From assembly GCA_026709535.1 (NCBI GenBank), contig JAPOST010000067.1:1-38466 (forward strand): a stretch of DNA of 38,466 nt, given 5' to 3'. Within the stretch, counting starts at the first letter, position 1. The number at the start of each line of letters is the position of its first letter. The position numbers and the translations under genes were made by a program. Shown here piece after piece: positions 12,207 through 15,255 of this stretch. The DNA is from Rhodospirillaceae bacterium. GTDB lineage: Bacteria; Pseudomonadota; Alphaproteobacteria; Bin65. The notes below the pieces were generated by a model that saw nothing but the letters and a program-made list of their open reading frames with translations, searched no databases and was not told where the DNA came from.

Positions 12207-12288
12207 GATGAACAACGTAAGTAATGTGCGGGCGGCGCTTGAGCAAGCCACTCGCCGTCCTGTGTCGCCAGCCGCTGAGGTGTCCGGT

Positions 12289-12477
12289 TCAGGGAGCCTT
12301 TGGGTTGTCCGGTTTGATGTCTCCACGAGGCGGTACCGCGACGAACCGGACACCGTCGCTGGTCACGAACCCGCTTCGACAAGGCGTCCCCGACAGGCTG
12401 GAAAGGAAAGACGATCCGGGATACAATCCGTCACCGCCGCCCTCCCGTGTCAGATTCCGATCAACCAACTGAATCAT
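12289..12477 (-). CDS. Hypothetical 62-residue protein upstream of coaBC
   Basis: A short ATG-started frame on the coaBC strand, with codon third positions moderately rich in G/C as in neighbouring genes. The product is polar with Gly- and Pro-rich stretches, no membrane segment and no motif I recognise. There is no clear Shine-Dalgarno site and 82 bases separate it from coaBC. It may be a real small protein, a leader peptide or chance. Confidence 0.25.
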   Translation of the reverse strand: MIQLVDRNLTREGGGDGLYPGSSFLSSLSGTPCRSGFVTSDGVRFVAVPPRGDIKPDNPKAP

Positions 12478-12707
12478 GACACAAAACGGAGCACGGCGGG
12501 GCCGCGTTCATGAAATAGCCGGGCTACTGACCAATGGTACGTGTAAAGCTTGATCGTTGCTCATTCTCGTCAAAAGCACGATTTCGGCGTCCGGTCTTGT
12601 CTTGAAATCAGGATATTCAGGCCAAATTCTTCGAGTTACTCTATGGCGTACTAGAGAAGTACACGGGAGCCGAAGCGGGTGATTTTTTTGGTCACGGCGG
12701 AACATCT

Positions 12708-13022
12708 TTGGGTGAGGTGACCGTCGGCGCAAACATTTTCGGCGGCACGAATCGCATATTTATGTCTGCCGATGCGGTCTCCGCATCCCTACCAATCGTA
12801 CCTGCGGATAATGTTGAACTTTACAATGATCTCATCAGAGCTGCGTACGTGAGTTTTCGTCAGGGATTTCCAGAGATCGACATTGCGAATATCGCGACCA
12901 CTGCCGCGTACCACATCCGTGCGAATGATGACCAAGATCTCTGCCAAACGATTCTCGACGGCATCAAAGTAGTTTGTTCGAAAGTTCGGACTCTTTCCAA
13001 GTGGAAACGCTCGCAAAGATGA
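12708..13022 (+). CDS. Unrecognised protein, first ORF of the RES/Xre cassette; 5' end possibly broken
   Basis: From TTG 12708 the frame encodes 104 residues, but plausible coding continues upstream (KFFELLYGVLEKY and GAEAGDFFGHGG) back to an in-frame TGA at 12603-12605. Beyond that TGA the same frame runs 23 codons further to an ATG at 12534. The gene may therefore be 5'-disrupted by one nonsense change, start at a non-standard codon, or be shorter as drawn. The C-terminal part (FPEIDIANIATTAAYHIRA) looks helical and soluble; I do not recognise a family. Its stop overlaps the next ORF's ATG as ATGA. Base composition is visibly more A+T-rich than in the flanking genes, suggesting horizontal origin. 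Confidence 0.5.
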   Translation: MGEVTVGANIFGGTNRIFMSADAVSASLPIVPADNVELYNDLIRAAYVSFRQGFPEIDIANIATTAAYHIRANDDQDLCQTILDGIKVVCSKVRTLSKWKRSQR

Positions 13023-13234
13023 GGATCAATGAAAACTCTGGAGCGTGGTTCGTATTGATCGACGTGGATCGCTCGTTGCAGTTGGAGAGAGGCCTCTTCT
13101 TGTCACGAGAGATCAATGTGATTCAGCAAGAACTCATAGACGATCCAAACGCGTTGTTTGCACTCGTCGACAAGATAGACGGTCAAGTGCTCGCAGATAT
13201 CAGACTAGATTTTTCGGAGGCTCATCATGGCTGA
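13019..13234 (+). CDS. Unrecognised 71-residue protein, second ORF of the RES/Xre cassette
   Basis: A small acidic protein beginning MRINENSGAWFVLIDVD, with an alternating hydrophobic start that suggests a beta-strand and a C-terminal half rich in Asp, Leu and Val. No known domain is apparent. The start is placed at ATG 13019 because it overlaps the previous stop as ATGA; an earlier in-frame start at 12974 would overlap more and has no ribosome site. Its 3' end overlaps the antitoxin gene by 8 bases, so it is tied by translation to both neighbours. Its role is unknown. Confidence 0.55.
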   Translation: MRINENSGAWFVLIDVDRSLQLERGLFLSREINVIQQELIDDPNALFALVDKIDGQVLADIRLDFSEAHHG

Positions 13235-13931
13235 CAATGCGCTTCGCGAACAGGTCCAAATGGGGCGAGCTGGTAACACGGGTGCTCTGCAAATAGAGGA
13301 GGAGGGCTTGTTCAATTGGAGCAATCACAAGACAAGCGGGTCGAACGGTATTTTTGGAGGGTTTCATCCCACCGCCTCCCAAGATATGCGTCGAGTTCCA
13401 CGGGAGGTAAATTGTGTGCCGCCCAAAGAGAGTTACCGACAACGAATCTCAGCTTCAGTTGAACAGGCTGGAACGCTTACGAATCGAGCGCTTCGGTCCG
13501 ATCAACAGTATCAAGTCGATCTGGACAATTTGACCGTTTCGATCGGGAAGAATCGGCGGACCTCGAAAATCAAACGATCAGGTCTCGTCGAGGGATTCTT
13601 TGGTGCTGGTGAACGTTGGCATTTTTCTGACGAGGAAATGTCAAAGGTTCTTCATCTTGAGGATGACATCGGAATGTATCGGTCTATCAAGCGAGGGGTC
13701 TTGAGAATGATTGGCGGTGACCTCAAAGACAGAATGACGTTATTCATCAGCATTGGCCTGAGCCTCGTCAACTTGTTCAACAAGAATTTGAGCGCCGAGA
13801 CCGACTGGTTAAACCAACCGAGGGATGAACTCACCGGAGTTTCTCCGAAAGAGTATCTGCAACTGGGGCCGGTTGAGAACATCAAACACGTAGCAGATCT
13901 GTTGAGGGCAGAGAGAGGTTTGCGTGTTTGA
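13227..13931 (+). CDS. Xre/MbcA/ParS-type antitoxin with a long N-terminal extension
   Basis: The last 100 of 234 residues match the layout of antitoxins partnered with RES toxins: an HTH-like segment beginning HFSDEEMSKVLHLEDD (about 132-165), a helical linker, and the toxin-binding MbcA/ParS/Xre (DUF2384-like) C-terminus (about 190-232) with the typical DWLNQPRDELTGVSPKEYL pattern. The call rests on this pattern and on the RES gene directly after it. Residues 1-130 are polar, Gly/Arg/Ser-rich and unrecognised; usual family members lack such an extension. ATG 13227 has a strong CGGAGG six bases upstream. Such antitoxins normally bind and silence the RES enzyme and repress their own operon. 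It overlaps ORFs on both sides by 8 bases. Confidence 0.72.
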   Translation: MADNALREQVQMGRAGNTGALQIEEEGLFNWSNHKTSGSNGIFGGFHPTASQDMRRVPREVNCVPPKESYRQRISASVEQAGTLTNRALRSDQQYQVDLDNLTVSIGKNRRTSKIKRSGLVEGFFGAGERWHFSDEEMSKVLHLEDDIGMYRSIKRGVLRMIGGDLKDRMTLFISIGLSLVNLFNKNLSAETDWLNQPRDELTGVSPKEYLQLGPVENIKHVADLLRAERGLRV

Positions 13932-14580
13932 TGGCTTGCAACCAACGGGCCTTGATGCAACCGTATACCATATGGCGTCGATAAAAGGTCCAACCGTTGA
14001 GAAGCTTGCCATGTTGGGCGTCTCAGTCGACAATTTTCGCGAGGTTATAGAGGAACTAAGGAAGATCGGCGAGGCGCTCTCCGCCGATGACATCGTGTCA
14101 AACACCTTCCGGCCCAGCGAAGGTTATCTGACACCCTTCAATCCAAGTCGCTTCACTGATGGGCATTATGGCGTTCTTTACACCGCACTTGAAACTGAAA
14201 CGTCTATCGCTGAGATCGAATACCACCAACGCAAAGCCGGTTACTTTCATCATCTGGAAAATGATGAATCCGCTCCAAAACGTTACTTCGATATCCTCAA
14301 GCTCGACTTTTCCGGGTCGCACTTCGACTTGTTCCCGATTGCCGATGAAGTTCCCGAATTAACGAGTGAAGAGGATAGCGGTTACCCGAGGTGTAGAAAG
14401 ATCGCGCAAGAAGCCATCGACGCTGCTGCCGACGCATTGCTGACGCCGTCTGCAAGGGCTGAAGAGAGAAAGTGTCTGCCTATGTTCTCCGCGAGCTCTT
14501 TCGAGGGAGATGCGAAGATAGTTGGCAGTGGTTATTTTCTTCACTACGAGGGACAAATAATCTTTCGAAACCAAGAGTAG
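13924..14580 (+). CDS. RES-domain toxin (NAD+-degrading type II toxin family)
   Basis: The 218 residues carry the signature RES-domain residues: Arg76 in FNPSRFTDG, Tyr86 and Glu97 in GVLYTALETETSIAEIEYH, and Ser176 in LTPSARAEE. Characterised RES toxins (Res of Pseudomonas, MbcT of Mycobacterium) deplete cellular NAD+ and stop growth; that activity is inferred here. The N-terminal 60 residues are helical and not part of the core. The start is GTG 13924, with AGAGAGG five bases upstream, overlapping the antitoxin stop by 8 bases; an intact frame and complete motifs suggest it is functional. The DNA is A+T-richer than core genes. No terminator is apparent after TAG 14580. Confidence 0.85.
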   Translation: MFDGLQPTGLDATVYHMASIKGPTVEKLAMLGVSVDNFREVIEELRKIGEALSADDIVSNTFRPSEGYLTPFNPSRFTDGHYGVLYTALETETSIAEIEYHQRKAGYFHHLENDESAPKRYFDILKLDFSGSHFDLFPIADEVPELTSEEDSGYPRCRKIAQEAIDAAADALLTPSARAEERKCLPMFSASSFEGDAKIVGSGYFLHYEGQIIFRNQE

Positions 14581-14895
14581 ATTTGATCGCCGCCGTGGCC
14601 GCAACCCCAAAAAACCTTCGCTGCTGGTGTTTTGATTCATTCATTTGATGCCATTTCCTGAAGCTTGTGGTGTCCTCTCTTCCACGCTTCGACGAGGTCC
14701 TCCGGCTTTCTGCGCCACCAGCGCGGCCTCGGTCGTTGCCGGCTTCAGGCTCCCGACCTTGCGGTTCGGCACGCCGCAGGAGCACGACTCCTACGAAGAC
14801 GAGAAATACGGGGAGGGCTATACGGGCACGGTCTTCGGCGAATAGAGACGGCCCGGGCGGGCGGCCTCGCGCCCCTTGCCGCCTGCTCCCCCGAA
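14581..14895. other. Decayed sequence after the toxin gene, no intact gene
   Basis: Composition returns to G+C-rich here, and short coding-looking scraps appear on both strands. On the minus strand a piece ends EDLVEAWKRGHHKLQEMASNE-stop near 14645; on the plus strand a piece ends EDEKYGEGYTGTVFGE at TAG 14843-14845. None has a start, a ribosome site or a family I can name. They look like remnants left by insertions and deletions beside the IS fragment. Confidence 0.4.
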
Positions 14896-15255
14896 GCGGG
14901 ATGGCGCTCCGCCGGCATCACCACCCTCGAGGCTGCCAACCGCTTCATCAGGGATGTCTGTCTGCCCGACCGGATCGACGAGATCCTGTGCCGCCACACA
15001 CCCCGCATCGCGACAACACGATGCGCCTCGCCGCGCCGCATGGCACCCGCGCCGTCTTCCACGACCCACGCTGTCTCGCCCGATACCGGAGCAACGCAGA
15101 ACCGATCGAAACACCCACCAGGAAGGCCGCGTGACCCGCTTCGACGCGACCGGACCGACCCCTGTGGACAAGGGGACAGCCGTGCCTGACCACGTCACCA
15201 CAGGGACAACAACAGCAACACAAGCGGACAAATCTGATTGCTGGCGACAGCCGCT
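14896..15255 (+). pseudogene. ISNCY-like transposase remnant and probable right IS end
   Basis: Pieces of one transposase C-terminus are split between frames. AGITTLEAANRFIRDVCLP, then DRIDEILCRHTPRI, is read in one frame (about 14905-15015); DNTMRLAAPHG and AVFHDPRCLARY follow in another (about 15013-15086), ending at TGA 15132-15134. In intact ISNCY-family transposases these motifs are separated by a longer stretch, so internal sequence has been lost and the frame shifted. The non-coding tail, including CGGACAAATCTGATTGCTGG near 15227-15246, looks like the right end of such an element. It abuts the 3' end of the PLP-enzyme gene. Family placement is from memory of the motifs. Confidence 0.65.

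Follow-up and report, generated by a model that had tools for sequence, protein, structure and literature searches.

The pair of RES toxin and Xre antitoxin genes found in this stretch of DNA (the window, 38,466 nucleotides in its whole length) probably belongs to a three-gene variant of the RES/Xre systems, in which an exchangeable third protein serves as the input, or sensor, module and acts through an extension of the antitoxin, and in which the gene of that third protein is broken in this genome. A sequence-only reading of the same letters had described two additional small genes in front of the pair. Here we describe the reading frames of the cassette, its relatives in other genomes and the site where it is inserted, and discuss the possible role of the third protein.

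Reading frames of the cassette

Four frames follow one another in the cassette (Table 1), and the positions and overlaps of 4, 8 and 8 bases that had been read from the letters were confirmed from the sequence. The strong ribosome sites claimed for the last two genes are likewise present, GGAGG ahead of the antitoxin ATG and AGAGAGAGG ahead of the toxin GTG, and the cassette is indeed richer in A+T than the core genes, with a G+C content of 0.47–0.50 compared with 0.56–0.64 in the adjoining genes. Scans for promoters and terminators gave no clear excess over shuffled sequences, and a search against Rfam gave no match.

Table 1. Features of the cassette and its flanks, in positions of the window.
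Feature	Position	Strand	Remark
Dispersed repeat pieces, left flank	12254–12526		match many contigs of the same genome, 74–90% identity
N-terminal piece of the putative broken third gene	12534–12605	+	ATG 12534, 'MVRVKLDRCSFSSK...', stop 12603–12605
ORF1, putative N-terminal half of the broken third gene (type b)	12606–13022	+	open frame without a start codon ahead of TTG 12708 (12708–13022)
ORF2 frame, putative C-terminal half of the broken third gene	12932–13234	+	ATG 13019 (13019–13234); open from 12932
GGAGG ribosome-binding site of the antitoxin gene	13217–13221	+	from sequence
Xre/MbcA/ParS-type antitoxin	13227–13931	+	234 aa; 117-residue N-terminal extension
RES-domain toxin	13924–14580	+	218 aa; GTG start; PF08808
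Dispersed repeat pieces, right flank ("IS remnant" of the earlier reading)	14624–15231		match many contigs of the same genome

The antitoxin and toxin frames are both intact, and it is these two genes that share the last overlap of 8 bases. The last frame is, as judged from its sequence, certainly a RES protein: it matches PF08808 with an E-value of 5.5e-16 and 59 bits against a cut-off of 23, and the residues R76, E97 and S176 are invariant in the subtype alignment of nine sequences, the role of Arg, Glu and Ser in the RES pocket having been described (PMC12457610). In the third frame, residues 180–231 match PF09722, the C-terminal toxin-binding domain, with an E-value of 5.8e-4 that lies below the Pfam cut-off, and the antitoxins of the relatives score above it. 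The protein aligns with 10 relatives across the whole HTH and toxin-binding part, and AlphaFold predicts residues 119–233 to be helical, mostly with pLDDT near 90, and residues 1–117 to be disordered (pLDDT about 40). The alignment and the predicted helices settle the weak Pfam score, and on both the third frame is an Xre antitoxin, so that the RES/Xre identity proposed earlier from motifs is upheld.

The first two frames, ORF1 and ORF2, have no match in Pfam, NCBIfam or PADLOC; ORF1 as a query found no relative in the class sample, in about 85,000 species genomes or in viral contigs, and a near copy of the whole cassette was found in no second genome. Relatives came to light only through a search with the RES gene and inspection of the genes adjacent to its matches. 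Against the profile of one kind of neighbouring gene obtained in this way, which we call type b, ORF1 is the best of the 371 frames of the window (E 3e-4, profile positions 37–138), and the ORF2 frame is the third, collinear with ORF1 at positions 164–198 and not significant on its own (E 4). When the two are joined the score rises from 15.1 to 20.3 bits, with an E-value of 2e-8 for the fusion as one target, and the global alignment of the two, read as one protein, against four type-b proteins gives Z values of 2.8–6.3.

Codon usage, scanned with a model built on the XRE and RES genes, points in the same frames: the signal runs in frame 0 from about 12624 to about 12960 and then in frame 2 from about 12950 to 13234. 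The frame of ORF1 is open well ahead of its TTG and is without a start codon in between. Further upstream, the ATG at 12534 opens a piece of 23 codons in the same frame as ORF1, which starts as the type-b relatives do (MKA or MQV followed by an alternating strand) and which alone is not significant against the type-b profile. Because codon usage favours frame 1 at 12552–12624, it is likely that the reading frame changes more than once near 12534–12606. At the other end, the stop of ORF2 overlaps the antitoxin start by 8 bases, and ORF2 thereby terminates on the antitoxin start in the same way as the type-b genes, whose overlap with the antitoxin is 4 bases in L054, L057 and L058.

The simplest account of these sequence comparisons is that ORF1 and ORF2 are collinear pieces of one third gene, extending from ATG 12534 to 13234 and interrupted by several frame breaks. 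Since both align in order to the single gene of the relatives, the 4-base overlap between them is considered a frame break and not an operon junction, and the earlier count of two extra genes does not stand. The sequence-only reading had also named fragments of an unrelated broken gene as the finding that would speak against it; the frames do appear to be fragments, whereas the gene they come from is related to the system.

That the frame breaks are errors of sequencing or assembly, with an unbroken third gene in the organism itself, we regard as unlikely. The genome sequence is a draft of 203 contigs, and the coding signal and the profile match run on across the breaks, which means that decay cannot be old. 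However, no other long gene of the window looks broken, more than 20 frames above 200 aa being intact, and several errors clustered in one gene of 0.7 kb would be improbable.

Relatives and the two kinds of third protein

The search for relatives began from an alignment (A2) of the toxin and two distant members of the class, followed by a scan of the approximately 85,000 species genomes and the class sample. At least 10 loci with the same arrangement were found, eight among the best matches of the scan together with one in G295 (L047) and one in G045 (L052/L077), and their hosts are Alpha- and Gammaproteobacteria, Nitrospirota and Acidobacteriota MAGs. Each listed locus has an unusually long Xre, a RES gene of one subtype and one gene directly upstream, often overlapping by 4 bases. 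Another genome, G754, was considered as an additional case; it matches L055 across all three genes and was left uncounted.

The upstream gene is of two kinds. Type b is found at four loci (L054, L057, L058 and L077) and encodes a protein of about 230–240 aa (alignment A3), and type a, found at six (L053, L055, L056, L060, L061 and L047), encodes a glycine-rich protein no longer than about 200 aa, in which the flanking motifs are invariant (alignment A4). When the profiles of both types were run over all fetched loci, they found the gene at 10/10 of the listed loci of the RES subtype and at none of 100 other, ordinary RES loci, a few of which have incomplete upstream sequence. The co-occurrence beside RES genes that had been suggested as a check is thus positive, and the extra part belongs to the system as had been supposed. 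Instead of the two-gene operon of RES/Xre systems, the listed loci of this subtype possess a coupled third gene, which in the window is broken.

A tree of the RES proteins separates the ten loci and the window from the rest by a branch with support of 97/95, and this split recurs in 96% of the bootstrap trees; the tree omits four long-branched or divergent rows, and it was rebuilt without another long branch beside which the window had been placed in the first tree. Within this RES branch the type of the third gene switches three times. Because the RES profile was trained on these same sequences, we base the argument on the tree and on the count of neighbours rather than on the bit scores. The three-gene system seems to be rare, since a search of 398 genomes of the phylum with the type-b profile was negative. 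Plasmids yielded no relative of P0003 or of ORF1, the RES protein of L061 as a query found only two distant RES genes there and none in phages, and the viral contigs contained ordinary RES genes only. In a limited search of the open-access literature, we found no description of a three-gene RES system.

At the locus in G295 (L047, 1411–2047) the RES gene is divided between two frames, the type-a gene and the Xre gene are open, and the glycine-rich middle of the type-a gene is shorter. From this case, which gene of the system decays may vary from genome to genome.

The structure of the type-b protein was predicted with AlphaFold from the four type-b sequences only (pLDDT 82.8, pTM 0.80). The model consists of two tandem beta-alpha-beta4-alpha halves, of which the second is less complete, joined by a poorly modelled linker (residues 144–157). 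Its best PDB matches in Foldseek are almost all TATA-binding proteins (TBPs), with an E-value of 1e-5 and a probability of 1.0 and with TM-scores of only 0.3–0.44; VIA-align gives a Z of about 9 to TBPs, and guanidino kinases score equally. A fold search of a viral structure library gave the same picture. The order of elements in the model fits the tandem beta-alpha-beta4-alpha repeats that form the saddle of TBPs, but the TM-score is low, sequence similarity is absent and type b occurs in a bacterial toxin–antitoxin context. We therefore take the type-b model as a duplicated alpha/beta fold of the TBP-like general kind, a likeness that is not proof of DNA binding. It would be quite improbable that the third gene encodes a transcription factor of the operon, with a DNA-binding saddle like that of TBP, and not a regulator of the toxin: the fold matches do favour TBPs, yet they come with low TM-scores and equally high guanidino kinases, the glycine-rich type-a protein takes the same place without a DNA-binding look, and an HTH is already supplied by Xre.

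The model also bears on whether ORF1 and ORF2 could be two functional small proteins, perhaps a split third protein, which we consider very improbable. The ATGA overlap at 13019–13022 would agree with such an arrangement, and the break lies near the poorly modelled linker, where the halves could in principle reassemble. However, ORF1 begun at 12708 would miss the initial strand and helix of the fold and its last 15 or so residues are out of frame, ORF2 begun at ATG 13019 would have one strand incomplete, the frame is broken once more upstream (12534–12606), and none of the relatives listed has two genes at this place. A single third gene with several frame breaks is hence the reading that we follow below.

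The insertion site

The cassette had been described as lying between coaBC and an IS remnant, as expected of an acquired unit. The coaBC gene is indeed on the left; the right flank consists of dispersed repeat pieces, and its identity as an IS is unsupported. Similar pieces flank the cassette on the left, and together these flanking pieces match about 38 places in the draft genome; on one contig (C107), pieces of the left and the right type occur together within about 1 kb. Such flanking repeats may mobilise or attract cassettes of this sort. The left flank also contains a perfect 12-bp inverted repeat (12279–12290 and 12343–12354, 52 bp apart).

Five relatives of the same genus (L149–L153) have other genes and no cassette at the corresponding site between coaBC and metB. 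A glyoxalase-like gene is present there in 4/5, three times next to a further long frame and once in a differing setting, and the fifth has about 10 kb of other genes; the distance from coaBC to metB is 1.5–1.8 kb in four of the five. Among these genus relatives the coaBC/metB intergenic region is a variable insertion site. The absence of the cassette from all five suggests, most simply, that it was acquired in the lineage of the window, and together with the lower G+C content this agrees with the earlier view of an acquired unit.

Possible role of the third protein

RES proteins consume or modify NAD+, and the C-terminal helix of Xre blocks their pocket (PMC12457610, summarising Skjerning et al. 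and others); in Pseudomonas putida, the complex of Xre and RES acts as a repressor of the operon that encodes it (PMC12204516). By analogy with the family, the RES protein of the window would consume NAD+, the helical C-terminal domain of its Xre would plug the RES active site, and the operon would be repressed through the Xre HTH. The anatomy of the three-gene loci suggests that the third protein could be an input module that docks on the antitoxin by its long disordered N-terminus, and that it may sense a trigger, perhaps a product of a phage or of stress, and so free the toxin. With the third gene broken, the pair of the window would run as an ordinary two-gene system. Two unrelated proteins, one glycine-rich and one built of two beta-alpha-beta4-alpha halves, take the same place in the operon, which argues for an exchangeable sensor; and because the third gene is lost here while toxin and antitoxin are open, its product is more readily seen as a part of the trigger than as a silencer of the toxin. 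Docking on the antitoxin tail is a proposal, since these tails are alike only partly among the type-a loci (Z about 10 for L056/L061) and have no motif detectably in common among the type-b loci (mean Z -0.1).

Compared with the two-gene type II systems of this family (ParST, MbcTA, NatRT, RES-Xre of P. putida and GndRX; COG5654/COG5642), the cassette shares the RES toxin with its Arg, Glu and Ser, the C-terminal toxin-binding domain of Xre, the antitoxin gene in first place of the pair and the overlap of the genes. It differs in the third gene in front, in the separate branch of its RES protein and in the long disordered N-terminal extension of the antitoxin, which is 164–257 aa in total length in the relatives, whereas the ordinary Xre has about 130–150 aa in most loci.

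A toxin, an extended antitoxin and a third protein are also combined in the TAC systems (HigBA1-SecB(TA) of Mycobacterium tuberculosis and CmdTAC of Escherichia coli), where the extension of the antitoxin binds a chaperone (PMC6377645, PMC11618068), and CmdT uses NAD+ as RES toxins do. In CmdTAC the chaperone is drawn away by a capsid protein of the phage (PMC11618068). The same logic raises the idea that the third protein here is a dedicated chaperone or co-antitoxin and the disordered Xre N-terminus a chaperone-addiction segment, so that without the third protein the antitoxin would be degraded and RES freed; the predicted disorder of the 117-residue extension suits this idea, and the two alternative third proteins would then be two alternative chaperones. 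We find it rather doubtful. If the chaperone were required, loss of the third gene should be lethal unless the toxin acts weakly or is not expressed, and a strict co-antitoxin would forbid what is seen in the window, a broken third gene beside an open pair, if the toxin is active and expressed. Moreover, the TAC extensions are C-terminal and that of the window antitoxin is N-terminal, the third gene comes first and the toxin is a RES protein; nor do the fold matches listed for type b include a SecB-like protein, which is not proof. An input module that releases the toxin thus remains our preferred interpretation of the third protein.

Another comparison is offered by cassettes that begin with a TIGR04255 gene, an NCBIfam family of unknown function for which a limited search of the open-access literature found no paper naming it. 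Three are present in the genome of the window: L171 (G000:C123:1-4478, 324–1822), L172 (G000:C28, 2949–5680) and L173 (G000:C96, 2952–4895). Their first gene, of about 270 aa, leads a tight operon as type b leads its own, and it is followed by an overlapping second gene with a low-complexity N-terminus (and an Xre-like HTH in two of them) and then by a third gene, seen where the contig allows; they differ from the window cassette in having no RES gene. Two other genomes carry TIGR04255 cassettes (L174, 3180–4961, and L175, 3775–5573) on the same three-gene plan with other second and third genes, from which TIGR04255 may be a general first component. Type b was also considered as a member of TIGR04255 itself and this was rejected: neither the type-b protein of G045 nor the fusion from the window has an NCBIfam match, the profile comparison gives a probability of <1%, and the mean alignment Z is 0.9 against -0.3 in controls.

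As a tentative extension, which we offer as one possibility, these loci could represent an undescribed branch of RES/Xre systems whose exchangeable input modules, glycine-rich or TBP-like with two halves, are read through the disordered antitoxin tail, and which together with the TIGR04255 cassettes would follow one general plan of sensor, tailed HTH adaptor and effector for the sensing of phage or stress. The natural trigger of RES toxins is largely an open question, and the coupled third gene, with its two interchangeable kinds, provides a concrete candidate for the input. Its intact copies in other species allow a direct test.
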